A stretch of 64,000 nucleotides of DNA from assembly GCF_023100685.1 (NCBI RefSeq), contig NZ_CP090064.1:2108001-2172000 (forward strand). Reading direction: 5' to 3'. The notes beneath the pieces were generated by a model, which did no database searches, had not been told where the DNA came from, and saw nothing but the letters and a program-made list of their open reading frames with translations. This DNA is from Proteus vulgaris (GTDB lineage Bacteria > Pseudomonadota > Gammaproteobacteria > Enterobacterales > Enterobacteriaceae). The position numbers and the translations under genes were made by a program. This document shows positions 27,035 through 42,550 of this stretch, piece by piece. Numbering within the stretch: the stretch's first letter is position 1; each line of letters starts with the position of its first letter.

Positions 27035-27064
27035 TTGACTGACAGTCAGTCGTTAGTGTATGTT
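27035..27064 (+). promoter_or_regulatory. Predicted promoter of the siderophore receptor 1 operon
   Basis: -35 TTGACT (27035-27040), 18-base spacer, -10 TATGTT (27059-27064). The -35 end is embedded in the TetR-like palindrome. Confidence 0.5.
27037..27051. promoter_or_regulatory. TetR-type palindrome in the siderophore operon promoter
   Basis: GACTGAC-A-GTCAGTC, perfect 15-base palindrome filling the promoter spacer. It is almost the same as the site at 40987-41001 in front of the DHA2 pump next to a tetR gene. Confidence 0.65.
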
Positions 27065-27110
27065 ACCGACCACGAGTCAATCATGGTTTATTTCATTTTT
27101 TGGGATCATT

Positions 27111-29300
27111 ATGTTGCTACTACCTCAAACAATACATTGTCCAAATAAGCAATTAAAAAATTATTGGAAATGTGGCTATTCTTTTGTTTTACCGACATTA
27201 ATTTCACTAAGCGTGATGTCACCTTCTTTCGCATCAGAAAATATTGAAAAAATTATTGTTACTTCTGCGCCAAGTTCGTCGTCTGATGCACAACCTTACG
27301 GATATGTTGCAAAACAACAGACAACGGCAACTAAAAGTGATGCCACTTTATTAGAAGCACCACAAATGGTTTCTGTTGTTAATCGTAGCCAGCTAGATAA
27401 CTTGCCCTCTGAATCTATTAGTCAAGCATTACGTTATAGCTCAGGGGTTGTGAGTGAAAAATTTGGCGCTTTTGGAAGCGGTATTGATTATTCAAAAATG
27501 CGCGGATTTGATGCTGATTATTATTTAGATGGCTTAAGAATGCTTGGTAATAGTGGTATTTGGGCGCCACAGATTGATAGTTGGAGTTTAGAAAGTATTG
27601 AAGCCGTACATGGCCCGGCATCTGCCTTATATGGACAAGGTGGTGCAGGTGGCGTGATTAATATGACATCGCGTCGCCCTTCCGCAGAAACGCAACACCA
27701 AGTGCAATTACAAGCGGGTAATAATAAAAATCATGGTATTAAATTTGATACCACATCAGCTCTTAATGAGGATGAAACATGGTTATATCGTGTTTCAGGG
27801 TTAGCGCTTGAACAAGAGTCGCAAATTCCCTCTTCTCGTCAAACTCGTTTTCTTATTTCACCGGCTATCACTTGGAAACCGAATGATGCACTGAGTTGGA
27901 CAATATTGGGACAATATCAAAAAGAGCCTCGCCTAGGTTACTACAATACGCTACCGGCTCAAGCATTAGGTTTATTACCGAATCCTAATGGTAAAGTTGA
28001 TCCTAATCGAAATTATAATAATCAAAGTCATGATAATTCACATCGTAAACAACAGTCGTTAACTTCATTGTTTGAATATGAATTGTCCCCACAGTGGCAA
28101 TTTAAGCAAAACACTCGTTTTATGAAGGTTGATACGGAAATAAGCCGTGACTATACCCGTGGTTTTTTACCTGGTGATCGCTTATTAACTGCGGTTTATC
28201 AGGAAGCACCAAGTAAATCAGAAACATGGGTAACTGATTCACAATTAATTGGTAAATTAGCAACATGGGATATCAATCATACTGTGATGGCTGGTTTTGA
28301 TTACCAGCATGGCTATATGACAAAAGATTGGTGGGGCTCACAAACGGTTAGTTTTGATCCGTGGGCATCACATCACAAGCCTGATTTTGAGCCTTACCCG
28401 GTTTCTCGTACTTCCACAAAACAACAATTTGATCGCTATGGATACTACTTACAAGATCACTTGCGTTGGCAGCAATGGAATTTATTACTCAGTGGCCGTT
28501 ATGACAGTGCGGACTTAGATACACATAATCAAATATCAGGTACGACACAGCAAAGCCATAACACAGCATGGAGTCATCGTGTTGGTTTAAGTTATCAATT
28601 TAATAATGGGTTCTCACCATGGATAAGTACATCTGATAGTTTTGATCCTGTATTGGGCACTGATGCAGATGGAAAAGCTTTTATTCCAATGAAATCAAAA
28701 CAATATGAAGCAGGCGTTAAATATCAAAATCCTGAGTTAACACAACTGGTTAGTGTTTCTGTATATCAATTAACCCAAGAAAATGTCACAACACATAATC
28801 CTAGAAATCCTGATTATTATCAGCAATCAGGTGAAATTCGTTCTCGTGGACTTGAGTTTGAAAGTAAATTAGTGCTAACGCCACAAGTTAATATGATGCT
28901 CAATTATGCCTATCTTCATAATATTGTGACATCGACTAGCGATCCAACCACCTTAAATAAACATCCTGTTCAAGTACCTACTCATACGGGATCTGCATGG
29001 ATAGATTATCGTTTCCATCAGCCTTATTTAGACGGTGCATTATTAGGTGCGGGTGTCCGTTATTTAGGTTCAACTTACGGCGATAATACAAATACATTTA
29101 AAGTACCCGCAGTATGGTTAGGGGATGTGAGTTTCCGCTACCAATTATCGGCAATTAATCGTGAATTACAGGGTTTAGAATTAGGATTAACTGTCAGCAA
29201 TATCACGAATAAATCCTATGTTTCTAGCTGTACTAGTTCGACTTATTGCAGTGTGGGAAGCGACCGTGTTGTGCTTGGTGTCCTCAATTACTATTTTTAG
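27111..29300 (+). CDS. TonB-dependent siderophore receptor 1 (FhuA/FcuA type)
   Basis: 729 aa from the ATG at 27111 (GGGATC at suitable spacing). The upstream in-frame ATG at 27060 lies within the predicted -10 region and is unlikely. A long N-terminal extension precedes the signal hydrophobic core (ending SPSFA). Plug motifs: EAPQMVSVVNRSQL, MRGFDADYYLDGLR, VHGPASALYGQGGAGGVINMTS; barrel with YGxYLQDHLRW-type segments and a C-terminal aromatic (LNYYF). It resembles receptors for ferric hydroxamates. Operon with a binding protein (gap 3 bases) and a SUMF1-fold gene. Fur box upstream. Confidence 0.87.
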   Translation: MLLLPQTIHCPNKQLKNYWKCGYSFVLPTLISLSVMSPSFASENIEKIIVTSAPSSSSDAQPYGYVAKQQTTATKSDATLLEAPQMVSVVNRSQLDNLPSESISQALRYSSGVVSEKFGAFGSGIDYSKMRGFDADYYLDGLRMLGNSGIWAPQIDSWSLESIEAVHGPASALYGQGGAGGVINMTSRRPSAETQHQVQLQAGNNKNHGIKFDTTSALNEDETWLYRVSGLALEQESQIPSSRQTRFLISPAITWKPNDALSWTILGQYQKEPRLGYYNTLPAQALGLLPNPNGKVDPNRNYNNQSHDNSHRKQQSLTSLFEYELSPQWQFKQNTRFMKVDTEISRDYTRGFLPGDRLLTAVYQEAPSKSETWVTDSQLIGKLATWDINHTVMAGFDYQHGYMTKDWWGSQTVSFDPWASHHKPDFEPYPVSRTSTKQQFDRYGYYLQDHLRWQQWNLLLSGRYDSADLDTHNQISGTTQQSHNTAWSHRVGLSYQFNNGFSPWISTSDSFDPVLGTDADGKAFIPMKSKQYEAGVKYQNPELTQLVSVSVYQLTQENVTTHNPRNPDYYQQSGEIRSRGLEFESKLVLTPQVNMMLNYAYLHNIVTSTSDPTTLNKHPVQVPTHTGSAWIDYRFHQPYLDGALLGAGVRYLGSTYGDNTNTFKVPAVWLGDVSFRYQLSAINRELQGLELGLTVSNITNKSYVSSCTSSTYCSVGSDRVVLGVLNYYF

Positions 29301-29303
29301 GAA

Positions 29304-30464
29304 ATGAACATGGATAACTATCGACGTTCATTACTAAAAGGTGCCAGTGCATTATCGTTACTATTAGCAAGCCCTTTTCCTGTTTATGCAAAACCAAAAC
29401 AGAGAGAAATCGTTGACATTCTGGGAAGAGAAATTGTATTACCACAAGAATTAACACGTATTTATGTGGCAGATAGTGGGTTATTTTTACTTTATGCTTC
29501 ATTAAATGAAGGCGCTCTTTATGAGCGCCTTATCGGGATGCCTTCTGCATTTCGTACCGCCGACTTAAGTTTATATCATCAATATACGCGAGCATTCCCC
29601 CAATTATTGGCATTACCTGAATTTACGGCTATGTCGAGTGGGCATTTTAATAGTGAGAAACTTATCGCGCTAAAACCTGATGTCATTATTGTGGCGGTTG
29701 GAACTTATCGTGCAATTAGTGTTAATGGTGTGCTGGATTTATTAACGAAAGCGAATATTCCTGTTGTGGTGTTTGATTTGAGTATCGACCCACTTAATAA
29801 CACGCCAATTAGCACATCTATTATGGGGAATTTACTGGGTAATATTTCACAAAGCCAAGCCATGAATCAATTTCGTGAAAAACAACTCACTTATATTTCT
29901 CAGCAATTAGGAAAAAAAACATTTAAACGCCCTAATGTGTTATTTGAACGAGCAGCGGGCTTTACACCTGAGTGTTGTCTTTCTTATGGCAATGGCAGTA
30001 TGGGACAAATGCTACAAAATGCAGGTGGGCAAAACTTAGGTTCAGAATATATAAAAGGCACTTATGGGGTTTTGAACCAAGAAACGGTGATTTATGCCAA
30101 ACCCGATAAAATTTTTTTAACAGGGGCTGATTGGAGTGGCTATAACCCGTCAGGTGATTGGATTAACTTAGGGCCTGGTGCAAATTTAGATTTGGCAAAA
30201 CAGCAACTTGAAATTTTAATGCAACGGCTTGCCTACAAAACACTCGATGCGGTTAAAAATAAACAAGTATATGCCCTTTGGCATTCATTTTATGACAGCC
30301 CTTTTGGTTTTATTGCAATCTTACAAATGGCTAAATGGCTACACCCTGATCGCTTTTCTCACCTCGATGTAGACACTATTTTTTATGATTACCATACTCA
30401 ATTTTTACCTGTGAAATGGGAAACGGGCTATTGGGTAACATTACTTGATCAAGATAAGGAATAA
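29304..30464 (+). CDS. Iron-siderophore ABC transporter binding protein with Tat-like signal
   Basis: 386 aa. The N-terminus MDNYRRSLLKGASALSLLLA contains a twin-arginine motif (RRSLLK), so export as a folded protein by Tat is likely. Class III binding-protein fold: VDILGREIVLPQELTRIYVAD, ALKPDVIIVAV in the N-lobe, GQMLQNAGGQNLGSEYIKG linking to the C-lobe. Longer than FhuD (about 300 aa). It should receive the substrate of receptor 1. No permease is encoded next to it; the only one in the island is FhuB-like 5 kb downstream. Confidence 0.85.
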   Translation: MNMDNYRRSLLKGASALSLLLASPFPVYAKPKQREIVDILGREIVLPQELTRIYVADSGLFLLYASLNEGALYERLIGMPSAFRTADLSLYHQYTRAFPQLLALPEFTAMSSGHFNSEKLIALKPDVIIVAVGTYRAISVNGVLDLLTKANIPVVVFDLSIDPLNNTPISTSIMGNLLGNISQSQAMNQFREKQLTYISQQLGKKTFKRPNVLFERAAGFTPECCLSYGNGSMGQMLQNAGGQNLGSEYIKGTYGVLNQETVIYAKPDKIFLTGADWSGYNPSGDWINLGPGANLDLAKQQLEILMQRLAYKTLDAVKNKQVYALWHSFYDSPFGFIAILQMAKWLHPDRFSHLDVDTIFYDYHTQFLPVKWETGYWVTLLDQDKE

Positions 30465-30466
30465 TC

Positions 30467-31588
30467 ATGTTTGATATCTATTCACCCGATCCTTTACGGG
30501 CAAAAGTTGAGTCACAGTCAGCAGGAAAAAGAACTATTTTATACTCAGCAAAAGGCCAACCTAACTATATGTACGTTGTTCCTTATTTTCGATTAAATGA
30601 GGTATCAGATAATCTTGATGATACTATTCACTCTGCATTTATTGTAAATGAAAAAGTTAAGAATGGATTTTTCTATGCGTGTTACCCCGCTTCATTGCAT
30701 CAAGGTGAGTTGTTAAGTTTGCCTAACCAAAAACCGGCGACATTATTAGATTTATTGAGTTTTCAGCAATATGCACAACATACAGGGCGGGGATTTCATT
30801 TAAGTACCCATGCAGAATGGGCTGCTTTAATGCTGTGGTGTCGCCACCACAATATGATTGAAGATGGCAATACAGATTATGGACGAAGTTTTCTTCATCC
30901 AGAGCAATCTGTTAATCGCGTTGATGGTAAAGAAGCTGGTGATACTGACTTTACTACAGGTGATCCCACGACAATAACAGGACCGCAATGGTCGAATTGG
31001 TATCATGATAATAGTGAGTTTGGTATTAGTGATTTATGTGGCAACCTTTGGGAATGGCAAAGCGGTATGCAATTAAATGCCGGAGAAATACAGATAATTA
31101 AAGATAATGATTCAGTATTCTGTGGTGATCCCTCTGTAACAGAGCAATGGCATTCAATAGCATTATCAACGGGGCAATTATTGCCCATCAATCATCCCGA
31201 TAGCGCAAAATACGATGCCCCTTCAGATCATTGTGACAAAAATGCAGGCACTCCCATTTTATCAACTTCAATAAAACACTATAACGGCACACCAACAGAT
31301 AATGGTTATCCTGCGGGATTAATGGATGGTGATTTTAATGCAATAACAGCAGAAAATAGTATTGAAATACCTACATTATTTAAAGAATTAGGATTATATC
31401 CAGCAATAAACCAACAGGACAATGATCAGGTTTATTTACGAAATTATGGTCAACGCTCTTTAATGCGCGGAGGGGCTTGGTATTCACAACAAGCTGCAGG
31501 TATGCGAACTTTGTGTTTAAGCCACAATGCATCACATCGCAGCACTTCTGTCGGTGGTCGCCTTGCTTGGATTGATACAACCAGTTAA
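30467..31588 (+). CDS. SUMF1/formylglycine-generating-enzyme-fold protein in a siderophore operon
   Basis: 373 aa, no signal peptide. Start follows the binding-protein stop by 2 bases with AAGGA upstream, so it is co-translated. Landmarks: YVVPYFRLNEV (36-46), HLSTHAEWAALMLW (111-124), GNLWEWQSG (192-200), and RGGAWYS near 334 leading to GGRLAW at 363-368. This is the C-type-lectin-like FGE/SUMF1 fold, in the subtype often found in tailed-phage proteins and in targets of diversity-generating retroelements, and distantly shared with PvdO and EgtB. The paired cysteines needed for formylglycine formation are not evident, so catalysis is unproven. Siderophore or iron-complex binding or processing is inference from context. 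Confidence 0.7.
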   Translation: MFDIYSPDPLRAKVESQSAGKRTILYSAKGQPNYMYVVPYFRLNEVSDNLDDTIHSAFIVNEKVKNGFFYACYPASLHQGELLSLPNQKPATLLDLLSFQQYAQHTGRGFHLSTHAEWAALMLWCRHHNMIEDGNTDYGRSFLHPEQSVNRVDGKEAGDTDFTTGDPTTITGPQWSNWYHDNSEFGISDLCGNLWEWQSGMQLNAGEIQIIKDNDSVFCGDPSVTEQWHSIALSTGQLLPINHPDSAKYDAPSDHCDKNAGTPILSTSIKHYNGTPTDNGYPAGLMDGDFNAITAENSIEIPTLFKELGLYPAINQQDNDQVYLRNYGQRSLMRGGAWYSQQAAGMRTLCLSHNASHRSTSVGGRLAWIDTTS

Positions 31589-31665: not shown

Positions 31666-31684
31666 GCTAATAGTAATCATTATT
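31666..31684. promoter_or_regulatory. Fur box before siderophore receptor 2
   Basis: 15 of 19 positions match the Fur consensus, including the unbroken TAATCATTAT half. It lies 15 bases before the chosen GTG start, which argues against starts further upstream. Confidence 0.75.
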
Positions 31685-31699
31685 ATTCGGTGGCTTATT

Positions 31700-33784
31700 G
31701 TGATTAATCTTTATGCATTTAAATTAAAACCGGTGGCATTGCTCTGTTCTGCCACCCTTCCTTTTGTTTTGGCTACACAGGCTTTTGCAGAAGAAGCAGT
31801 AAAGACAGAACAAGTAGAAAAGCTTGTCGTTAGTGCTCAAGCATTAAAAGTAAATACTAGTTTGCAAGAAACGCCTAAATCCGTTTCTGTCATTTCTCAA
31901 AAAGATCTCGAAATACATGCGCCTCAAAAACTTGATGAAGCTTTACGTTATACGTCAGGTGTCGTTTCTCAACCCTTTGGTGCCGATAACGATACTGACT
32001 GGCTTCGTGTGCGCGGTTTTGAAGCTGCAACGTATTTAGATAACAGTCGTCTCTTTCGTGATGGTTATTATACATGGCTACTTGAACCTTATGGTTTTGA
32101 ACAAATTGAAGTTGTAAAAGGTGCTTCAGCTGTATTATTTGGTGAATCTACACCTGGTGGTGCTGTTAACGTAGTACAAAAGAAACCCAGCTTTAAACCC
32201 CAAAATGAAGTATTTCTTGAAGTTGGAAATAATGATCAACGTGGGTTAGGTTTTGATGTTTCAAGTGCCACGGATGATAAACGTGTGCGCTATCGCCTTG
32301 TTGGGTTAATGAAAAAATCAGACGGAGAATTATCTCACACAGATAGTGAGCGTATTTATCTGGCACCAAGTGTTGCGATTAACTTGACTGACGATACATC
32401 ATTGACGTTTATGGCAACTTATTTGCATGATGATGGCACACCAACTAACCCGTTCTTTCCTGCCGCAGGCACTTTGATTTCATCTCCTTTTGGTAAAATT
32501 AAGCCTTCAACAAATTTAGGTGAACCAGGTTACGATAAGTATAAACGTACTCAAATTTCAGCGGGTTATTTATTAGAAAGTAATATCAATGATGTTTGGC
32601 GTTTTTCTCAACGTCTAAATTATGATTATAACGATCTGTTATTGCGTAGCGTTTATGCCTTCCCTAATTCAGATATTACCGCAACAGAACTGAATCGTGG
32701 CATCGTTTTCCGTGATGGTAAAAACCAAAGTATCTCTTTTGATAATAATGTTGTTGGTGAATGGGATACAGATAATTTCGAGCATACATTATTAGCGGGT
32801 GCTGAATTGCAATATCACCAAACTAAAGGTGATGAACAAGATAATTACAATTTTGGTACGATTAATCCGTGGAACCCTGTTTACGGTAAATATATTCCTC
32901 TTGATCCTGCTAATAATGTCAATCGCACCATCGACAAAACACAATATAGCCTTTATTCACAGTATCAAACCAAATTTGATAGTCGCTGGGTTGCAGTAGC
33001 CGGTGTACGTCAAGATTGGGTAAAAACAGAAAATAAAGCACAAACAAAAAATGAGGACAAATCACGTACCGATAGTGAGTTTAGCCTCAATGCAGGATTA
33101 ATGTATCTAGCCGATAATGGTCTCTCTCCTTATGTGAGCTATTCTGAGTCTTTTGAGGTGATGAGCACTATCGACCCTGCGACGAAAGATCTGTATAAAC
33201 CGTTAAAAGGCGATCAAATTGAGGCAGGGATAAAGTACACACCTGATTTTATGGATGGTTACTTTAATATTGCCTGGTTTGATATCACACAAAAAAATGC
33301 TCTTGTAGCAAACCCAACGACTTCTGTTTCAACACAAACTGGTAAAGTGACATCAAAAGGTGTTGAAGTAACAAGTGAAATGCAATTAACGGAACGTTTT
33401 GCATTAAAAGCCAATTATACCTATACCGATATGCAAACTGATGACACAGGTAATAAAGGTAAACAACAAGCAGGTTTAATTCCTAAACATACCGCATCTG
33501 CTTGGGGTAACTACACTATTCCAATTACTGGAACTCAAGATTTAACCTTAGGAACAGGTGTTCGTTATTTAGGTAAATCTAAAGATAATCCTAAGAGTAG
33601 TGATTTAACTGTACCAAGTGCAACATTATGGGATATGGCTGCAATCTATAACGTCAATACACAGTGGCAATTACAGTTAAATATCAACAATATTCTTGAT
33701 AAAGAATATCTCTCTGGTTGTGATTATTACTGTTATTACGGTCAATCCCGTTCTGTTTTATTGAATGCTAAATATCGCTGGTAA
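31700..33784 (+). CDS. TonB-dependent siderophore receptor 2 (FhuA-like position)
   Basis: 694 aa from a GTG start (GGTGG 6 bases upstream); the longer open frame overlaps the Fur box. Signal peptide ends TQAFA. Plug motifs: ETPKSVSVISQKDL, LRVRGFEAATYLDNSRL, VKGASAVLFGESTPGGAVNVVQKKP; barrel ending in LNAKYRW. The distal position of a CDYYCYYG Cys pair near the C-terminus is typical of FhuA-family receptors. The next three genes are fhuC-, fhuD- and fhuB-like, the E. coli fhuACDB order, so a hydroxamate siderophore is the probable ligand; the exact one cannot be read. Confidence 0.87.
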   Translation: MINLYAFKLKPVALLCSATLPFVLATQAFAEEAVKTEQVEKLVVSAQALKVNTSLQETPKSVSVISQKDLEIHAPQKLDEALRYTSGVVSQPFGADNDTDWLRVRGFEAATYLDNSRLFRDGYYTWLLEPYGFEQIEVVKGASAVLFGESTPGGAVNVVQKKPSFKPQNEVFLEVGNNDQRGLGFDVSSATDDKRVRYRLVGLMKKSDGELSHTDSERIYLAPSVAINLTDDTSLTFMATYLHDDGTPTNPFFPAAGTLISSPFGKIKPSTNLGEPGYDKYKRTQISAGYLLESNINDVWRFSQRLNYDYNDLLLRSVYAFPNSDITATELNRGIVFRDGKNQSISFDNNVVGEWDTDNFEHTLLAGAELQYHQTKGDEQDNYNFGTINPWNPVYGKYIPLDPANNVNRTIDKTQYSLYSQYQTKFDSRWVAVAGVRQDWVKTENKAQTKNEDKSRTDSEFSLNAGLMYLADNGLSPYVSYSESFEVMSTIDPATKDLYKPLKGDQIEAGIKYTPDFMDGYFNIAWFDITQKNALVANPTTSVSTQTGKVTSKGVEVTSEMQLTERFALKANYTYTDMQTDDTGNKGKQQAGLIPKHTASAWGNYTIPITGTQDLTLGTGVRYLGKSKDNPKSSDLTVPSATLWDMAAIYNVNTQWQLQLNINNILDKEYLSGCDYYCYYGQSRSVLLNAKYRW

Positions 33785-33833: not shown

Positions 33834-33856
33834 TATTATTTTATAAATGAGTGACC

Positions 33857-34639
33857 ATGTTTGAACTCTCAAATATTCAAATGGATCGCGGTGGACGTAC
33901 TATTTTATCAATCCCCTCACTGCGTATTTCAGATTCTGGGTTAACTATTGTGCTCGGTCATAATGGTTCAGGTAAATCGACTTTAGTCAGTTTATTATCT
34001 GGTCAGCAAGCCCCAGATAGTGGAAATATTACACTGAATAATTGCAATATCTCACACTATAAACCACGTGACCTAGCTAAACAGATAGCCTTTCTTCCTC
34101 AAAAACTTCCTGCTTCTGCAGGATTAACAGTAAGAGAATTAGTGCGTTTAGGCCGTTTTCCTTGGCGTGGAACATTAGGCCGTTGGAATAAAAAAGATGA
34201 TGAAATAATCACAACAGCAATGGTAAAAGCGGGAGTTCTGCCCTTTGCAGACACACTCGCTGATGATTTATCTGGTGGTGAACGTCAACGTGCTTGGGTT
34301 GCAATGTTACTGGCTCAACAATCACCCATTTTAATTTTAGATGAACCTACTTCTGCTTTAGATATACATCATCAATATCAACTAATGGAACTCTTAAGTG
34401 AGCTAAATCAAACTCAACATGTTGGTATTATTGTTATTTTGCATGATCTCAACCTTGCCTTGCGTTATGCCACTCATATTATCGCGCTTAAAAAAGGGAA
34501 AATTGCATTTGAAGGTGAAGCCTCTCTACTTTTTGATGATGAGCGACTTTCAGCACTTTATGAAACACCTATTAAGCTGATTGAACACCCTGATAATCAA
34601 GGTTTACAACAACATAAGGTGGCAGTGGTATGCGTGTAA
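33857..34639 (+). CDS. fhuC: Ferric-hydroxamate ABC transporter ATPase (FhuC-like)
   Basis: 260 aa. I use the ATG at 33857; a GTG two codons earlier is the alternative. Walker A GHNGSGKST (34-42), Q-loop in FLPQKLP, signature LSGGERQRAW, Walker B ILILDEPTSALD, switch histidine in ILHDLNLALRY. This is the FecE/FhuC subgroup that powers siderophore uptake. It overlaps fhuD by 10 bases, and fhuD overlaps fhuB, so the three are one translation unit. Confidence 0.9.
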   Translation: MFELSNIQMDRGGRTILSIPSLRISDSGLTIVLGHNGSGKSTLVSLLSGQQAPDSGNITLNNCNISHYKPRDLAKQIAFLPQKLPASAGLTVRELVRLGRFPWRGTLGRWNKKDDEIITTAMVKAGVLPFADTLADDLSGGERQRAWVAMLLAQQSPILILDEPTSALDIHHQYQLMELLSELNQTQHVGIIVILHDLNLALRYATHIIALKKGKIAFEGEASLLFDDERLSALYETPIKLIEHPDNQGLQQHKVAVVCV

Positions 34640-35538
34640 TATTACAAAAAATAGTTAGATTTCTGCCTTTTTGTCTGGCTATTTTATTTATCACTCCCCT
34701 TGTTAATGCTGCGCAAAATAGCAATAAAATACCCCAACGTATTATTGTTTTAGATTGGGATTTACTGGAACAAATATTGACACTTGATGTTATTCCTGTG
34801 GGGGCAACTGAAATTGCTGGGTATAACCAATGGGTAGCTCACCCTGTTGCTCCAAATACTATTGAAGAAGTGGGTATGCGAGCAGAGCCTAATTTAGAAA
34901 AAATGGCATCGTTAAAGCCAGATCTTATTTTGGCATCAAGTTCACAACAAGATTTATTGCCTGTATTAAAAACTATTGCCCCTGTCGTATATCTGCCTAA
35001 CTTCTCTCGTCAAGATAATGCCGCAGAAGTTGCTTTGGCGCATTTTAATACCCTAGCCTCTATTTTAGGAAAAACAGCGCTTGCACAAAAAAAGTTAGCG
35101 GAAATGGATAGCACTTTTACACAATTAAAGAGCAAATTACAGCAAGCATTTATTACATTACCTGAAGTGGAAGTGATCCGTTTTTCTACATTAACATCTG
35201 TTTTTTTGTACACCGAAAATTCAACAACTGAATATGTAGTTAATAAGTTAGGTCTAAAATCTGCCATATCATTACCTCCTCAACCTTGGGGAATTGATCA
35301 GCGAAGAATGAATATATTGCAGCATATTAGACAAGGATATGTTCTTTATATGTTGCCATTCCCTGATGAAAGTAAACTGCAAAAATCCGTGTTATGGCAA
35401 GCCATGCCATTTGTACAGAATGGGCATTTTCATTCAGTGAAACCAGTATGGAATTATGGTGGAGTGGCATCATTAACGTTAATGGCTGAAGCTATTACAG
35501 AAAGTTTATTAGATATGGCACAGAATAATGAACATTAA
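34630..35538 (+). CDS. fhuD: Ferric-hydroxamate binding protein (FhuD-like)
   Basis: 302 aa with a Sec signal peptide (about 1-28, ending LVNAA). Class III binding fold with RIIVLDWDLLEQILTLDVIPVG, VGMRAEPNLEKMASLKPDLIL and the C-terminal block LWQAMPFVQNGHFHSV that parallels E. coli FhuD (LWQAMPFVRAGRFQRV). E. coli FhuD uses a Tat-type signal; this one does not. It delivers ferric hydroxamates to FhuB. Translationally coupled on both sides. Confidence 0.9.
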   Translation: MRVILQKIVRFLPFCLAILFITPLVNAAQNSNKIPQRIIVLDWDLLEQILTLDVIPVGATEIAGYNQWVAHPVAPNTIEEVGMRAEPNLEKMASLKPDLILASSSQQDLLPVLKTIAPVVYLPNFSRQDNAAEVALAHFNTLASILGKTALAQKKLAEMDSTFTQLKSKLQQAFITLPEVEVIRFSTLTSVFLYTENSTTEYVVNKLGLKSAISLPPQPWGIDQRRMNILQHIRQGYVLYMLPFPDESKLQKSVLWQAMPFVQNGHFHSVKPVWNYGGVASLTLMAEAITESLLDMAQNNEH

Positions 35539-37495
35539 GCAATTTACTTTCTATTTTTTGGCAATCATCTTATTAAGCATTACTAGCTTACAAATTGATA
35601 ATTCTCTTTCATTATCTCGTCAATGGTATTTGTTAGGGCATTTAGACACAAACACCCTATTTGCCGATGTTTTTTTTATTCATGCACAATTACCTCGTTT
35701 AGCTATGACACTGCTGATTGGAGGAATTTTCGGTGTTATTGGCAGCTTAATGCAACAATTAACACAAAATAACCTGACATCACCGTTAACATTAGGAACT
35801 TCTTCAGGCGCTTGGTTAGCTTTAGTTATTGTTAATATCTGGTTTACAGATTGGGTTGCTGATCACAGCGCATTCGCTGCGACAATGGGAGCGTTATTGG
35901 CTTTCTTTTTGGTGATTATGATTGCAGGTATTCGCAATATGACCGGCTTGCCCCTTGTTGTTTCTGGTATGGTAGTGAATATCTTATTAGGTGCGATTGC
36001 AACTGCATTAGTGACGTTAAATTCTCAATTCGCCCAGAATATATTTATGTGGGGAGCTGGAGATTTAGCTCAAGATGGTTGGGATACTTTTTTTTGGTTA
36101 TTACCTCGAATTGCACCTATTTTACTTATTTTTATGTTTGCACCCCGTATTCTCACTTTATTGCGATTAGGGCATGAAGGTGCAACGGCTCGAGGGCTGT
36201 CTGTTTTACCCACATTTGCATTTTTTATTATATTAAGCACTTGGTTAGTTTCTGTTTCAATTACTGTTGTTGGGGTTATTAGTTTTATCGGATTACTTGC
36301 ACCTAATATTGTCAGAACATTAGGTGCAAGAACGCCTCGTCAAGAGCTTATTGCCAGTGGACTAATGGGAATATGTTTATTGCTTCTTACGGATAGCTTG
36401 GCGATATGGATTGGTCAGTGGCTTAATACGGTTATTCCAAGTGGTGTTACCGCGGCTGCAATTGGCGCACCGGCACTAATTTGGTTTAGCCGCAAGAAAA
36501 TGCGAGCTCAAGATCAACTTTCGATTTCAATTCATTCTCAGGCTAAAACAGTATCAAAATATACCGTGATAGGAATATTTGTATTATTAATACTCGGATT
36601 AGCCCTTACTCTGTTCATTCATATTAATGAACAACAATGGTTCTGGGAAATACCTTCTGTTTATCAATGGGCATTACGATCGCCACGTTTATTGGCTGCA
36701 TTATTTGCAGGTATTGCACTGGCTATTGCTGGCGTTATTTTACAACGTTTAATCTACAATCCATTAGCTAGCCCTGATATTTTAGGGGTTTCATCTGGTG
36801 CTACTTTTGCATTGGTTTTTTCTAGCTTAATTTTAGGGAGTACCTTACAAACATCACAGTGGGGAATTGCATTATTAGGTAGCTGTATTGTGATGATTGC
36901 TCTATTAGTCTTAGGCAAGAAACACCAATATGCACCAGCCAGCTTAATATTAACGGGTATTGCCTTAACCGCGAGTTTAGAAGCCTTTATTCAATTTTTC
37001 TTAGCGAAAGGCTCATTAAGCAGCTATAAAATATTACTGTGGTTATCAGGTTCGACTTATCGTGTTAATAGTGAACAGGCTCTCTATTTTGCATTCGCAA
37101 TCACATTGATTGTAGGAAGTGTCTTTTTATTAACGCGCTGGCTTGCATTAATATCAATTGGTCGAAGTTTTGCTTTAGCTCGTGGATTACATACTGAACG
37201 TGCCAGTATTATTTTATTAATCATCGTTTCACTATTATGTGCTTTAGTCACTTCAACGGTAGGCCCTATTGCCTTTATTGGCTTAGTTGCTCCTCATATG
37301 GCGGTATTACTTGGTGCTAAAAAAATCAACGCACAATTAATGGTTTCAGGGTTAATTGGTGGAACATTAATGGTTTGGGCTGATTGGCTTGGACAAATAT
37401 TTATTTATCCCGCACAAATTGCAGCAGGAACTTTAGTCGCTATTTTAGGTGGTAGCTATTTCCTTTGCTTAATGCTGTTAAATCGTAGCCGTTGA
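35528..37495 (+). CDS. fhuB: Ferric-hydroxamate permease, fused double-domain (FhuB-like)
   Basis: 655 aa, about 20 membrane helices, two tandem FecCD domains (about 45-325 and 375-650), each with the coupling-loop region (ARGLSVLP and ARGLHTERA; GFIGLLAPNIVRTLG-like and GFIGLVAPHMAVLLG-like). A fused permease of this length is diagnostic of FhuB. It is the only iron permease in the window, so it may serve the products of both receptor genes and both binding proteins. Ends in a strong hairpin. Confidence 0.92.
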   Translation: MNIKQFTFYFLAIILLSITSLQIDNSLSLSRQWYLLGHLDTNTLFADVFFIHAQLPRLAMTLLIGGIFGVIGSLMQQLTQNNLTSPLTLGTSSGAWLALVIVNIWFTDWVADHSAFAATMGALLAFFLVIMIAGIRNMTGLPLVVSGMVVNILLGAIATALVTLNSQFAQNIFMWGAGDLAQDGWDTFFWLLPRIAPILLIFMFAPRILTLLRLGHEGATARGLSVLPTFAFFIILSTWLVSVSITVVGVISFIGLLAPNIVRTLGARTPRQELIASGLMGICLLLLTDSLAIWIGQWLNTVIPSGVTAAAIGAPALIWFSRKKMRAQDQLSISIHSQAKTVSKYTVIGIFVLLILGLALTLFIHINEQQWFWEIPSVYQWALRSPRLLAALFAGIALAIAGVILQRLIYNPLASPDILGVSSGATFALVFSSLILGSTLQTSQWGIALLGSCIVMIALLVLGKKHQYAPASLILTGIALTASLEAFIQFFLAKGSLSSYKILLWLSGSTYRVNSEQALYFAFAITLIVGSVFLLTRWLALISIGRSFALARGLHTERASIILLIIVSLLCALVTSTVGPIAFIGLVAPHMAVLLGAKKINAQLMVSGLIGGTLMVWADWLGQIFIYPAQIAAGTLVAILGGSYFLCLMLLNRSR

Positions 37496-37558: not shown

Positions 37559-38767
37559 TTACGCATAACTTTTACTGTTTTTATGATTAATGCGTTGAAA
37601 ACCTAAAAATGCAATTAACATCACTAAAGTACTTGCTCCAATTGCAATCCATACACCAGATTGAACACCAGAATAATCAACAAGTTGCCCTGTTAATGTT
37701 GCACCAATTGCTGTGCCTACATTTAATCCTGCAAGTAACCATGTCATTCCTTCTGTAAGTTGATTTTCGGGTACACTTTTCTCAATAAGTGACATTGTCA
37801 CTATTATCATGGGAGCAAAGAAGATCCCGGAAATTAATACCACTAAACTTAAGCTATAAATTGAGTCTACAAAAACAAGAGGTAAAATAGTGAGGAACGT
37901 TGCGATGCCACCTAAGCATAATAAACGGTGTAACGGTGTTGATAATTTTAACGTGCCAAAGAATAGACCTGCAAAACAAGAGCCAATAGCATAGGCGGAT
38001 AATACAATGCTTGCACCTGCAGGCATTTTTTGGGTATTGGCGAAAGCCACACTAAAAATATCAATGGTGCCTACAATTACACCCATAAAAATCATAATAA
38101 CAGTTAAGATTTTTACGAGAGAAAAGCGGATCACAGATTGTGTCTTATGATGTATTAATTCAGAAGATATTGGTGTTATTGCAGGCTCTGTATCACGTTG
38201 TAAAACGAGTAAAAATACACCGATGATAAGAAAAACAGCAGACATTAATAACCCAGCTTGTGGAAAAAAAACGACACTTAATGTGACTGAAATGGGTGGA
38301 CCAATAATAAATGTAACTTCATCAAACACACTTTCTAACGAATAAGCTGTTTGTAAGCGACTATCTTCTTTATAAATTACTGTCCATCTTGCTCTGATCA
38401 TTGCAGAAATACACGGCATAAAGCCAATCAGCACTGCAAAAATAAATAATAAACTAATATGCCATTGTAACCATGTTGCCAATAACATGCCCCCTATTCC
38501 AATAACGCTGATTAATGTGAATAAAGGTAAAATTCGATATTGCCCATAAGTATCAACTAGACGTGATATTTGCGGTGATAGCATCGCGTAAGTAAATACA
38601 AAACTGGCAGAAATTGTTCCCGCTAATGCATAGCTGCCTGTAAGTTGTGAAATCATCATAATGATACCAATACCCATCATCGGTAGTGGTAATCGTGCAA
38701 CCATTCCCGCTAAGGTAAAAGATAGCGTGCCTTTATAGCTAAATAGTGTTCGATAAGTATTTATCAT
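37559..38767 (-). CDS. MFS transporter (12-helix)
   Basis: 402 aa from the ATG at 38767, which has AAGGAAAACT directly upstream; the open frame runs 25 codons further. About 12 hydrophobic helices and a short loop motif (SRLVDTYGQYRILP) in place of a full GxLaDrxGrR sequence. The nearest class is the sugar-efflux/drug-efflux type MFS, substrate unknown. Divergent from a tetR gene 141 bases away, with repeated GTATGTAT half-sites in the gap. Confidence 0.82.
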   Translation of the reverse strand: MINTYRTLFSYKGTLSFTLAGMVARLPLPMMGIGIIMMISQLTGSYALAGTISASFVFTYAMLSPQISRLVDTYGQYRILPLFTLISVIGIGGMLLATWLQWHISLLFIFAVLIGFMPCISAMIRARWTVIYKEDSRLQTAYSLESVFDEVTFIIGPPISVTLSVVFFPQAGLLMSAVFLIIGVFLLVLQRDTEPAITPISSELIHHKTQSVIRFSLVKILTVIMIFMGVIVGTIDIFSVAFANTQKMPAGASIVLSAYAIGSCFAGLFFGTLKLSTPLHRLLCLGGIATFLTILPLVFVDSIYSLSLVVLISGIFFAPMIIVTMSLIEKSVPENQLTEGMTWLLAGLNVGTAIGATLTGQLVDYSGVQSGVWIAIGASTLVMLIAFLGFQRINHKNSKSYA

Positions 38768-38814
38768 AGTTTTCCTTATGTTTACCCTTGCCATTTTAGC
38801 GAGGGTTAAAGATA

Positions 38815-38835
38815 ATACATACAGTGCGTATGTAT
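38815..38835. promoter_or_regulatory. TetR-type inverted repeat, MFS/tetR promoter region
   Basis: ATACATAC / GTATGTAT arms separated by 5 bases. The GTATGTAT half recurs at 38881-38888 just before the tetR start. The layout resembles the E. coli AcrR operator (TACATACA ... TGTATGTA). Confidence 0.65.
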
Positions 38836-38907
38836 AAATCATATATTCATACGATCTGAATGTAAATATACAAACAATACGTATGTATGTTTAAAAAAGG
38901 AGATAAA

Positions 38908-39501
38908 ATGGCTAGACGTACTCGTGCTGAAATGGAAGAAACACGGCTATTATTGCTAGAAACAGCAAGGAAAGTATTCTGTGAACAAGGCTATACAGAA
39001 GCCTCAATGGATGACTTAACGGCACAAGCAGGTTTAACTCGAGGTGCGTTGTATCACCATTTTGGTGATAAAAAAGGATTGTTATCGGCTGTTGTTGCAC
39101 AAATAGATGCAGAGATGGATGCTCGTTTGCAGGCTATTTCCGATACTATTGACGATCCTTGGTTGGCATTTTCAATGCGTTGTCATACCTATTTAGAAAT
39201 GGCTTTAGAGCCTGAAATTCAACGTATTATTATGAGAGATTCACGCGCTGTATTAAGTGATAAAGTGACTGAACTTCCCACTCATTGTGTAGTATCTATG
39301 AGTAGTATGATTGATAAACTTATCGAGAATAAAATACTTGTAAAGACTGACTCAAAAATGTTGGCTCTATTCATTTATGGCAGTTTAGAAGCCACTGCTT
39401 TATGGATAGCAAATAGTCTCGATGGTAAGGCTCAGCTAGAACATGCTAAATCTACATTAGATACCTTATTAAATCGTTTACGTATTTTGCAGAATAAATA
39501 A
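38908..39501 (+). CDS. TetR/AcrR-family repressor
   Basis: 197 aa from the ATG at 38908 (AAGGAGATAAA-ATG, an excellent ribosome-binding site). Helix-turn-helix at about 27-52 with TEASMDDLTAQAGLTRGALYHHFGDKKGLL. The C-terminal two-thirds form the ligand-binding and dimer domain. Probable repressor of the divergent MFS gene and of itself through the repeats in the gap. Followed by its own terminator. Confidence 0.88.
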   Translation: MARRTRAEMEETRLLLLETARKVFCEQGYTEASMDDLTAQAGLTRGALYHHFGDKKGLLSAVVAQIDAEMDARLQAISDTIDDPWLAFSMRCHTYLEMALEPEIQRIIMRDSRAVLSDKVTELPTHCVVSMSSMIDKLIENKILVKTDSKMLALFIYGSLEATALWIANSLDGKAQLEHAKSTLDTLLNRLRILQNK

Positions 39502-40298: not shown

Positions 40299-40895
40299 TT
40301 ATTTTAGTAATTGGGTAAATTGTTGATATAGCATATTGCCCAGTGTTTTTGCGGTGTATTCTTCACTATGGCCTAAGTTATCAACAGCGGCATGCATACC
40401 GTGATAAATCAATGTACTGGTTAATTCAGGCTGTGTGACGTGCCACGTTTTATTTTCAGTTCCCGCAATTAACAATGTTTGTATTTGCTGCAATGCCCTA
40501 TTTTCATGAATATTACTGCTTTGATGAAAAACTTGATGAAAAAGCATATCGTGTAATTGCTGTTTCTCAACATAAGCAATTACACTAATTTCACACCATT
40601 GTTTTAATTTTTCACGGTGATCTTGCTCTGAGCAGGCATCCATTGCACTGTCTATTTTATCCAAGTACCAATCCATATAACGAGTTCTTAAGGCATCAAG
40701 AACGTCTGTTTTAGCAGAAAAATAGTGATAGTATGTTCCTTTGGCTACCCCTGCCTTTTTTACGATATCGCTCACAGTTGTTGCATCGAAGCCTTTATCT
40801 AAAAACAATGTTTCTGCCGCATTCATTAACTCTTCTAAACGAACCTCTGCGGGTTTTGTTCTTGGTTTATCTGTAGTTTGTTCTTCTAATGACAT
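40299..40895 (-). CDS. TetR/AcrR-family repressor, probably of the adjacent DHA2 pump
   Basis: 198 aa. Helix-turn-helix at about 38-62 (ATTVSDIVKKAGVAKGTYYHYFSAKTDVL). Good ribosome-binding site GGGAGATAAGC before the ATG. Divergent from the DHA2 transporter; a near-perfect palindrome at 40987-41001 inside that pump's promoter is the probable operator. The same palindrome occurs at the siderophore receptor 1 promoter, so its regulon may reach there. Confidence 0.88.
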   Translation of the reverse strand: MSLEEQTTDKPRTKPAEVRLEELMNAAETLFLDKGFDATTVSDIVKKAGVAKGTYYHYFSAKTDVLDALRTRYMDWYLDKIDSAMDACSEQDHREKLKQWCEISVIAYVEKQQLHDMLFHQVFHQSSNIHENRALQQIQTLLIAGTENKTWHVTQPELTSTLIYHGMHAAVDNLGHSEEYTAKTLGNMLYQQFTQLLK

Positions 40896-40984: not shown

Positions 40985-41013
40985 TTGACCGACGGTCAGT
41001 CGAGTATTATTAT
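40985..41013 (+). promoter_or_regulatory. Predicted promoter of the DHA2 pump
   Basis: -35 TTGACC (40985-40990), 17-base spacer, -10 TATTAT (41008-41013). This places the transcript start near 41020 and supports the ATG at 41048. Confidence 0.65.
40987..41001. promoter_or_regulatory. TetR-type operator at the DHA2 pump promoter
   Basis: GACCGAC-G-GTCAGTC, palindrome with one mismatch, covering the promoter spacer. Repressor binding here would exclude RNA polymerase. Confidence 0.75.
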
Positions 41014-41047
41014 GCCATTATTATTCATCATTAAGGCAATAAAACTT

Positions 41048-42550
41048 ATGACTTATTTGAAACGACTGTCACTTATCTGTGCCATTTGTTTAGGCACTTT
41101 TATGGCAACACTTGATATTAGTATTGTTAATGTAGCATTACCCACTATTCAAAATGATATTCACGCTGATATGGCAACCTTACAGTGGATTGTCGATGCT
41201 TATGCGCTCTGTTTATCTGCCTGTATTTTGTCATCAGGCCCTTTAAGTGACCGCTTTGGGCGAAAAAAAGTATGGTTATGGGGGGTGATTATTTTTACAG
41301 TGGGATCTGTGATCTGTGCGATTGCACAGCAACATGAAGTGCTTATTTTAGGTCGTATTATTCAAGGTATTGCTGCCGCAGCACTAATTCCGGGCGCATT
41401 GTCTCTAATTACACATGCTTTTCCAATTGATATTGAGCGTGTCCGTATTATAGGTATTTGGTCTTCTGTCAGTGCTTTATCACTGATTATTGGTCCTATT
41501 TTAGGTGGGGTATTAGTTCACACTAGTGGTTGGGCAAGTATATTCCTTATTAATATTCCTATAGGCATAATTACTGTATTACTAGGTTGGTATGGATTAA
41601 GTGAAAGTGCTGATCCTGAAAATGTGGCACTCGATCCCTTTGGTCAATTAACCAGTATGTTAGGATTAGGCTTGTTGACTTATGGTTTAATTGAAGCCGG
41701 ATCGGTTGGTTGGTCGCATTATCGAACTTTATCGACATTGATTGTAGGCGTTATATTCCTCGCCCTCTTTTTAATGATAGAAAAACGTGTTAAACGCCCT
41801 TTATTACCACTTACTTTATTTAAAGATCGTGCATTTTTTCAATATAACCTTTCTTCTTTCACTTTGGGCTTTGCCACTTATAGTAATGTCTTTTTTATTG
41901 CCTTTTTTCTGCAAAAAGCACAAGGCTGGAGTGCATTAGAAACAGGCTGGAGAATGGCACCTGAATTTATTGCGATGGCCCTATTTTCAATGTCTTTTGG
42001 GCGTTTATCTGCATATTTTTCAGTCAGAAAACTCATGATCTGTGGTTTCTTATTTATTGCTATTTCTTCTTGCTTATTAGCGACATTGGCAACAAATAGC
42101 CACTATGGATTAACTGGAAGTTACCTATTTGTATTAGGTGCTGGAATGGGCTTGTCAACACCAGCAATTGGTGCGTTAGTGATGAAAAGTGTTTCACCAT
42201 CTCGCTCTGGTATGGCGTCTGCAACCATGAATGCATTAAGACAAACAGGAATGACGATGGGAATTGCTTTACTAGGCACATTAATGGTGCAACAAGCAAT
42301 CCATTATATGGTTATGCAAAGTCAGGTATTAGGAATATCTGTAAACTATATCGATATTGTCAGTCTAGTAACTGAAAATGCTACGAGCAATTTAGACAAA
42401 GGATTCATCACCATGTTACCAGAGGCATTTAATTCTGGGTTTGCTTATGCAATCGCAACTGCTGGGATCTCATGTTTTGTCACTTTATTTATCGTGTTAT
42501 TTCCTTTTAAAGCAAAACATAGCGCACTTTCTCAGCAAATAACGGATTAA
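41048..42550 (+). CDS. MFS drug transporter, DHA2 (14-helix) family
   Basis: 500 aa from the ATG at 41048; the open frame starts 21 codons earlier, inside the promoter. Fourteen hydrophobic segments. Motifs: LDISIVNVALPTIQ in helix 1, GPLSDRFGRKKVW loop, LGRIIQGIAAAALIPGALSLI, and the helix 5 motif C region SLIIGPILGGVLV. Quaternary-ammonium, dye or antibiotic export is typical. It is not obviously SmvA or EmrB; substrate unknown. Converges on a lysR gene with only 3 bases between stops. Confidence 0.87.
   Translation: MTYLKRLSLICAICLGTFMATLDISIVNVALPTIQNDIHADMATLQWIVDAYALCLSACILSSGPLSDRFGRKKVWLWGVIIFTVGSVICAIAQQHEVLILGRIIQGIAAAALIPGALSLITHAFPIDIERVRIIGIWSSVSALSLIIGPILGGVLVHTSGWASIFLINIPIGIITVLLGWYGLSESADPENVALDPFGQLTSMLGLGLLTYGLIEAGSVGWSHYRTLSTLIVGVIFLALFLMIEKRVKRPLLPLTLFKDRAFFQYNLSSFTLGFATYSNVFFIAFFLQKAQGWSALETGWRMAPEFIAMALFSMSFGRLSAYFSVRKLMICGFLFIAISSCLLATLATNSHYGLTGSYLFVLGAGMGLSTPAIGALVMKSVSPSRSGMASATMNALRQTGMTMGIALLGTLMVQQAIHYMVMQSQVLGISVNYIDIVSLVTENATSNLDKGFITMLPEAFNSGFAYAIATAGISCFVTLFIVLFPFKAKHSALSQQITD

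Follow-up and report, generated by a model that had tools for sequence, protein, structure and literature searches.

The variable proteins of diversity-generating retroelements (DGRs), such as TaqVP (PDB 5vf4) and those of Pseudomonas phage Bise, Vibrio phage VHML and a prophage-like locus on an Ideonella plasmid, are known as scaffolds valued for being mutated; their genes stand in a tail operon, with a template repeat and a reverse transcriptase nearby. Here we consider a related gene in a 64,000-nucleotide stretch of the Proteus vulgaris genome (contig NZ_CP090064.1, positions 2,108,001 to 2,172,000; hereafter, the window), whose product has the corresponding variable face constant across several bacterial lineages. 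The window protein differs from the described DGR proteins in that its site is fixed and its gene lies in an uptake locus; no reverse transcriptase was found at the loci of this frozen type, and no template repeat in the window's own genome. On balance, we lean to the view that the gene derives, through domestication, from a DGR-type variable protein and that its product, with the variable face fixed, works in a small-molecule uptake system and handles an imported metallophore in the cytoplasm. The scaffold and the operon type are already known; what is new, as far as titles and abstract openings of the open-licence PMC literature go, is a variable-region-frozen relative inside an uptake locus. 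An earlier note on this DNA, made from the letters alone, had called such a link undescribed and, in the same body of titles and abstract openings, neither the protein nor the link was found.

Several other systems invite comparison, the identities given below being those of the alignments of Foldseek hits. The active site of human formylglycine-generating enzyme (FGE; SUMF1) contains the cysteine pair C336/C341, the numbering also used in the titles of entries 2aft and 2afy. The window protein shares 15-18% identity over about 180 residues with FGE; however, a C-x4-C pair, equivalence to FGE being judged by position and spacing, is present in the last 60 residues of 0/69 members of the clade described below, so that membership in the sulfatase-type FGE family was rejected. 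PvdO, a periplasmic maturation factor, is a structural neighbour (18% identity over 184 residues) but, unlike PvdO, the window protein has no visible signal peptide and occurs in loci devoid of biosynthesis genes. In the sulfoxide synthases EgtB and OvoA, a DinB domain carries the iron site, which in EgtB includes an iron-binding His triad; the only Pfam match of the window protein is PF03781, with no DinB domain found, and EgtB membership was rejected on this ground (a bare HxxxHxE string occurs somewhere in 15/69 clade members, DinB not being called). Finally, the FhuA/FoxA and FhuBCD systems of hydroxamate uptake have receptor and transporter homology in common with the window locus, and we know of no FGE-fold protein in them.

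A ligand-binding face fixed by selection

The gene under study is an open reading frame (ORF) of 373 amino acids at 30467-31588 of the + strand, which opens 2 bases past the stop of the gene for a Tat-type siderophore-binding protein (SBP; 29304-30464), a placement correctly reported in the earlier note. Its translation contains the FGE-fold landmarks that the note had listed, GNLWEWQSG, RGGAWYS and GGRLAW. The match to Pfam PF03781 is weak and partial, though over the cut-off (29.2 bits, residues 87-199); PHROG 2889 covers the protein almost end to end (306 bits). Sequence and fold searches indicate a C-type lectin fold of the FGE subtype with full-length homology to a DGR variable protein, and a search of PDB sequences with a profile from A1 returned a single match, 5vf4. 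The gene is under purifying selection, with dN/dS of 0.10-0.14 against five Proteus relatives.

A tblastn search with the gene product retrieved 51 phage records, every one below 60% identity, with the best row at 33%. Tail genes surround the relative, and a reverse transcriptase is close by, in Pseudomonas phage Bise, Vibrio phage VHML, Pseudoalteromonas phage ACA1 and the Ideonella plasmid prophage-like locus; the relatives in genomes G1203 and G1311 are of the prophage type. Against this pattern, no reverse transcriptase was found within 9 kb of the relative in one Klebsiella phage record, and Klebsiella phages account for 24/51 records. Template and variable repeats, compared over the best 90-base stretches of the first three loci scanned, differ at template adenines only (12/12, 7/7 and 5/5), and a template copy is also present in ACA1. 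The adenine codons of the Ideonella locus correspond to window residues 333, 337, 339, 340, 343, 350, 352, 353, 357, 359, 361 and 362; this mapping was done by eye, and the mapping from TaqVP agrees with it. The TaqVP paper (PMC6328139) names nine variable residues, which align to window residues 333, 337, 340, 343, 350, 353, 357, 359 and 361, the alignment being gapless across the variable region.

The ligand-binding face, hypervariable in the phage relatives, has been fixed by selection in the clade to which the window protein belongs. The alignment comprised 146 proteins, namely 28 from the loci and the window and 118 of 120 listed homologues (287 found), retained by a length of 330-420 amino acids; these rows contain near-duplicates and reduce, at 85% identity, to 45 frozen sequences and 66 others. 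The frozen group, 69/146 proteins, was defined by Cys350, Ser352 and His353, so that it is 100% conserved at these three sites by definition; the independent tests of freezing are five non-defining sites and trees built without the variable region. At the non-defining sites, Ala337, Tyr339, Ser340 and Ser359 are each found in 69/69 members and His357 in 67/69 (two have Gln), whereas the eight-residue site strings of the other 77 proteins are all distinct. In the 85%-reduced sets, entropy at positions 337, 339, 340, 357 and 359 is 0-0.26 bit in the frozen group versus 2.9-3.4 in the rest, against protein-wide means of 1.50 and 1.43, respectively. The contrast observed at nine core sites, three of them definitional, was reached by 0/100,000 random draws. 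With the variable region excluded, the frozen group forms one side of a branch in the tree of 113 rows (SH-aLRT 99) and is again split from the others in a tree of 56 rows (bootstrap 100, SH-aLRT 100). Across 21 loci, synonymous positions vary in the codons of the fixed sites, and the sameness is therefore not due to recent copying. At these loci, Ser352 and Ser359 are always encoded by AGY, and the Tyr, Cys and His codons are necessarily NNY; this pattern is consistent with an origin in AAY template codons but is no proof of it.

The fixed Cys350, His353, His357 and Tyr339 would be compatible with a metal or catalytic site. It is conceivable, if rather improbable, that, on the FGE fold, these residues build a new site, either catalytic or metal-binding, with which the protein would modify or cleave the imported compound. 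Such a role would agree with the (near-)invariance of Cys, His, His, Tyr and Ser in the 69 sequences (Cys350 and His353 by group definition), with the presence of the natural-product FGE-fold proteins PvdO, CalU17 and ToxD among the structural neighbours of the window protein, and with the ability of the gene to occupy a biosynthetic operon. However, the copper-type C-x4-C pair in the last 60 residues (0/69) and a DinB domain were not found, and the candidate residues lie on the face that serves as the binding surface in DGR proteins.

The fold, the full-length homology, the equivalence of the variable region and the failure to find DGR parts point to a DGR-type ancestry for a gene that would have parted from the retroelement. 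A tblastn scan with five reverse transcriptases over frozen and variable-protein loci found a reverse transcriptase in 0/27 stretches of the former and in 28/38 stretches of the latter (24/34 minus the four query sources), several misses being short contigs. A template repeat was not found in the window's own genome, where only the locus itself matches over the length of the query and the next best matches span 14-25 bases. The direction of transfer would be from phage to cell; since the trees were rooted at the midpoint, descent from phage proteins is likely, not proven.

The nearest characterised relatives being phage tail or DGR proteins, the gene might be mere cargo, a phage remnant that landed in an operon and has no role in uptake. 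This possibility is very remote and is largely refuted. In viral contigs, three frozen-clade queries (single proteins, reaching close relatives only) had zero relatives; a comparable query with a variable protein reached 30 loci. The neighbours of the gene are receptors, the SBP and transporters rather than tail genes; the same partners recur across lineages; and purifying selection, the fixed site and the co-occurrence with the SBP in the same 9/20 Proteus genomes all speak against idle cargo. A phage remnant was rejected on locus context, purifying selection and viral scans. Nor are the homologues confined to phage or unrelated contexts, the outcome that the earlier note had set against its own reading: the 21 frozen-clade genome loci read share a TonB receptor and an SBP.

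A small-molecule uptake system around the gene

Its conserved neighbourhood places the gene in a small-molecule uptake system. The TonB receptor and the Tat binding protein are constant; a TetR regulator and a DHA2 exporter are often present as well and, in some cases, so is a PrpD-like enzyme, an ABC transporter or a biosynthetic operon of polyketide type. In the window, the features are as follows.

27060..29300, + strand: TonB-dependent receptor 1 (TBDR1), FhuA/FoxA-like, partner gene; plug and barrel Pfam matches, PRK10044 at 499 bits, under the cut-off of 803
29304..30464, + strand: Tat-type SBP, partner gene; Peripla_BP_2, PRK14048 at 145 bits, under the cut-off
30467..31588, + strand: FGE/C-type-lectin-fold protein, frozen relative of DGR variable proteins; the gene under study
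31463..31552, + strand: residues 333-362, equivalent of the DGR variable region; from template/variable repeat mapping in phage and prophage relatives, conservation and the TaqVP variable residues
31664..33784, + strand: TonB-dependent receptor 2 (TBDR2), FhuA/FoxA-like by Pfam and PRK matches; neighbouring unit, outside the conserved cassette
31666..31684, unstranded: Fur-box-like site between the gene and TBDR2; 15/19 to the consensus
33851..37495, + strand: FhuC-, FhuD- and FhuB-like transporter genes; neighbouring unit, which three Proteus genomes with only a scrap of the gene retain
40299..40895, - strand: TetR regulator; orthologue of the cassette-side TetR (Providencia 61-62%, Serratia/G844 46-49%)
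40985..42550, + strand: EmrB/DHA2-type exporter, divergent from this TetR; 55-57% to the exporter of the G731, Serratia G910 and G844 loci

The SBP has a twin-arginine N-terminus, as read from its sequence, and is one of two Peripla_BP_2 proteins among the neighbours of the gene. A TBDR1 orthologue adjoins the same SBP in Proteus, Providencia, Morganella, Serratia, G731, G844 and G1217. The neighbourhood survey that the earlier note had proposed placed TBDR1 and the SBP beside the gene at 21/21 genome loci (9 Proteus, 2 Providencia, 2 Morganella, 5 Serratia, G844, G731 and G1217); this count covers genomes within the samples, and many clade proteins, such as those of Achromobacter, Comamonas and Acinetobacter, lie outside it. 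Among 20 Proteus genomes, nine have the intact gene and three a fragment, and the SBP orthologue is present in exactly the same nine. The fragments (L013, L014 and L015, in G307, G298 and G300) are 3' pieces of the gene upstream of TBDR2, and TBDR1 and the orthologous SBP are absent there. In Providencia (L016, L017) and Morganella (L019, L020), the order TBDR1-SBP-gene is conserved and the TBDR2-FhuCDB unit is not adjacent. A role tied to that unit was rejected as the core link, given that the cassette stands without it alongside in Providencia, Morganella, G308 and G301. The G731 locus consists of the exporter, PrpD-like, SBP and TBDR1 genes, with our gene divergent; in G1217, which is of the order of Halomonas (locus L022), the arrangement is TBDR1-SBP-permease-ATPase-gene-PrpD-like, followed by TetR and the exporter.

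The clade is rare: it was found in 1/369 genomes of the class sample, where the window's own genome is the sole member (E up to 1e-60), in 8/295 of the family sample and in 1/293 of the Halomonas-order sample. The cassette is unmatched in plasmids at the DNA level; 370 plasmid records contain a relative of the SBP versus only 12 with an FGE-like relative.

Producers, uptake-only species and a proposed step after import

The gene is present in 5/30 Serratia genomes (so named because two members are 99.2% identical to proteins of S. ureilytica and S. liquefaciens). In Serratia and G844, it closes an operon of ligase, thioesterase, pyridoxal-phosphate (PLP) enzyme, AOC-like, amine oxidase, KS-AT-ACP and dehydrogenase genes; domain calls in the Serratia operon read EntE-like ligase, thioesterase, cysteine-synthase/SbnA-like, AOC-like, amine oxidase, KS-AT-ACP and leucine/tryptophan-dehydrogenase-like. 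This polyketide synthase (PKS)-type operon lies beside the TonB receptor and binding protein (L052:10-8955, L053:164-9307, L070-L073), and TBDR1-SBP, TetR, the DHA2 exporter and the PrpD-like enzyme form the other flank of the gene in 6/6 loci. A tblastn search for the seven biosynthetic genes found none of them in the 64-kb window, at the eight further Proteus loci, at those of Providencia and Morganella or on the 17.7-kb G731 contig; at the G1217 locus, ligase matches are weak (25-27%) and no other biosynthetic gene matched. The operon of Serratia G910 is unmatched in E. coli at the DNA level.

At the uptake-only loci (Proteus, Providencia, Morganella and G1217), the gene is in line with the receptor and SBP genes, and where biosynthetic genes exist it is in line with these; the arrangement points to a post-import step common to both kinds of locus, namely iron handling or release, or protection. 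Producers and uptake-only species would both need such a step and, therefore, both keep the gene. As envisaged here, the receptor and the binding protein would import a metallophore made by bacteria such as Serratia; the window protein, in the cytoplasm, would bind the metallophore, its ferric form or a breakdown product via the fixed site, and thereby could assist the release or hand-over of iron; and the TetR-controlled exporter, where present, would send the spent compound back out. The frozen binding site suggests a dedicated handler of one imported small molecule, and binding is the simplest activity to propose because DGR proteins bind their ligands with this face. The cytoplasmic location put forward in the earlier note holds insofar as no signal peptide is visible by eye in the FGE-like protein, which makes a cytoplasmic step likely rather than certain. 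The note's reading of the protein as a siderophore-handling enzyme or chaperone is partly supported.

The strongest rival, and still an unlikely one, is immunity or sequestration, whereby the fixed site would neutralise a compound toxic in the cell, such as an antibiotic-like metallophore, and the TetR-controlled exporter would remove it. Its strength comes from the fold neighbour CarF, a carbapenem immunity protein, although the likeness is at the fold level only (16% identity) and, for the car system, we know of no counterpart of the receptor and SBP partners. According to PMC6813493, CarF belongs to an immunity pair retained by non-producers. However, uptake-only species carry the receptor and SBP, which would import the poison, and the toxicity of the compound is a supposition. 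A truncated-looking copy of the frozen clade, with an altered N-terminus, was also seen on the Salmonella IncHI2A resistance plasmid CP048303.1 (L029:9941-13344), with TetR and the DHA2 exporter, near IS26 and tet(C).

Several observations weigh against handling of a metallophore by a DGR-derived protein. No receptor or SBP was found in 21 kb around the Salmonella plasmid copy, which fits immunity as well as uptake. TetR and the exporter were not found near the Morganella cassettes, nor the exporter near those of Providencia, nor TetR on the G731 contig. In Serratia and G844, the gene sits inside the biosynthetic operon rather than the receptor operon. The dehydrogenase, the sole biosynthetic gene queried against whole genomes, was unmatched in one Providencia and one Morganella genome, a search made without a positive control. 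That the imported compound would be a metallophore is judged solely from the similarity of the receptor and SBP to known proteins. Not all mapped variable sites are fully fixed in the frozen group (362 at 89%, 361 at 78%, 333 at 58% and 343 at 29%).

A bolder version of the metallophore-handling scenario, which we advance tentatively, is that a phage DGR variable protein was captured and its hypervariable face frozen on a metallophore, yielding a new class of cytoplasmic metallophore receptors that would serve both producers and pirates of an undescribed PKS-type metallophore. If true, the handling scenario would show what a DGR scaffold can bind once selection has fixed a single solution; siderophore use would also gain a cytoplasmic step. 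Since the variable face is held constant, the ligand should be findable: the receptor, the binding protein and the biosynthetic operon point to one small molecule, and the finding marks the Serratia PKS-type locus for chemical study.

The second receptor and minor observations

The Fur box that the earlier note had placed before the second receptor is present as a Fur-box-like site at 31666, which scores 15/19 against the consensus; because three sites scoring at least 15 occur on the + strand of the window, it is weakly suggestive. The true start of TBDR2 is probably near 31700 rather than 31664, as most intact Proteus relatives have 694 amino acids.

In two Proteus genomes, a minus-strand ORF of 865-874 amino acids lies between an ABC-F gene and the cassette site (L058:5703-8327 and L063:3429-6026); the window lacks it at the corresponding position. 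A second MFS gene and a divergent TetR occupy window positions 37559-39501, between FhuB and the conserved TetR/exporter pair; this TetR is only 20-31% similar to the conserved ones. At L076:2961-19412 of the Proteus genome G302, a relative of the SBP (33%) occurs together with a weak match to a PLP enzyme and a distant receptor-like ORF; this may be a siderophore locus in its own right.
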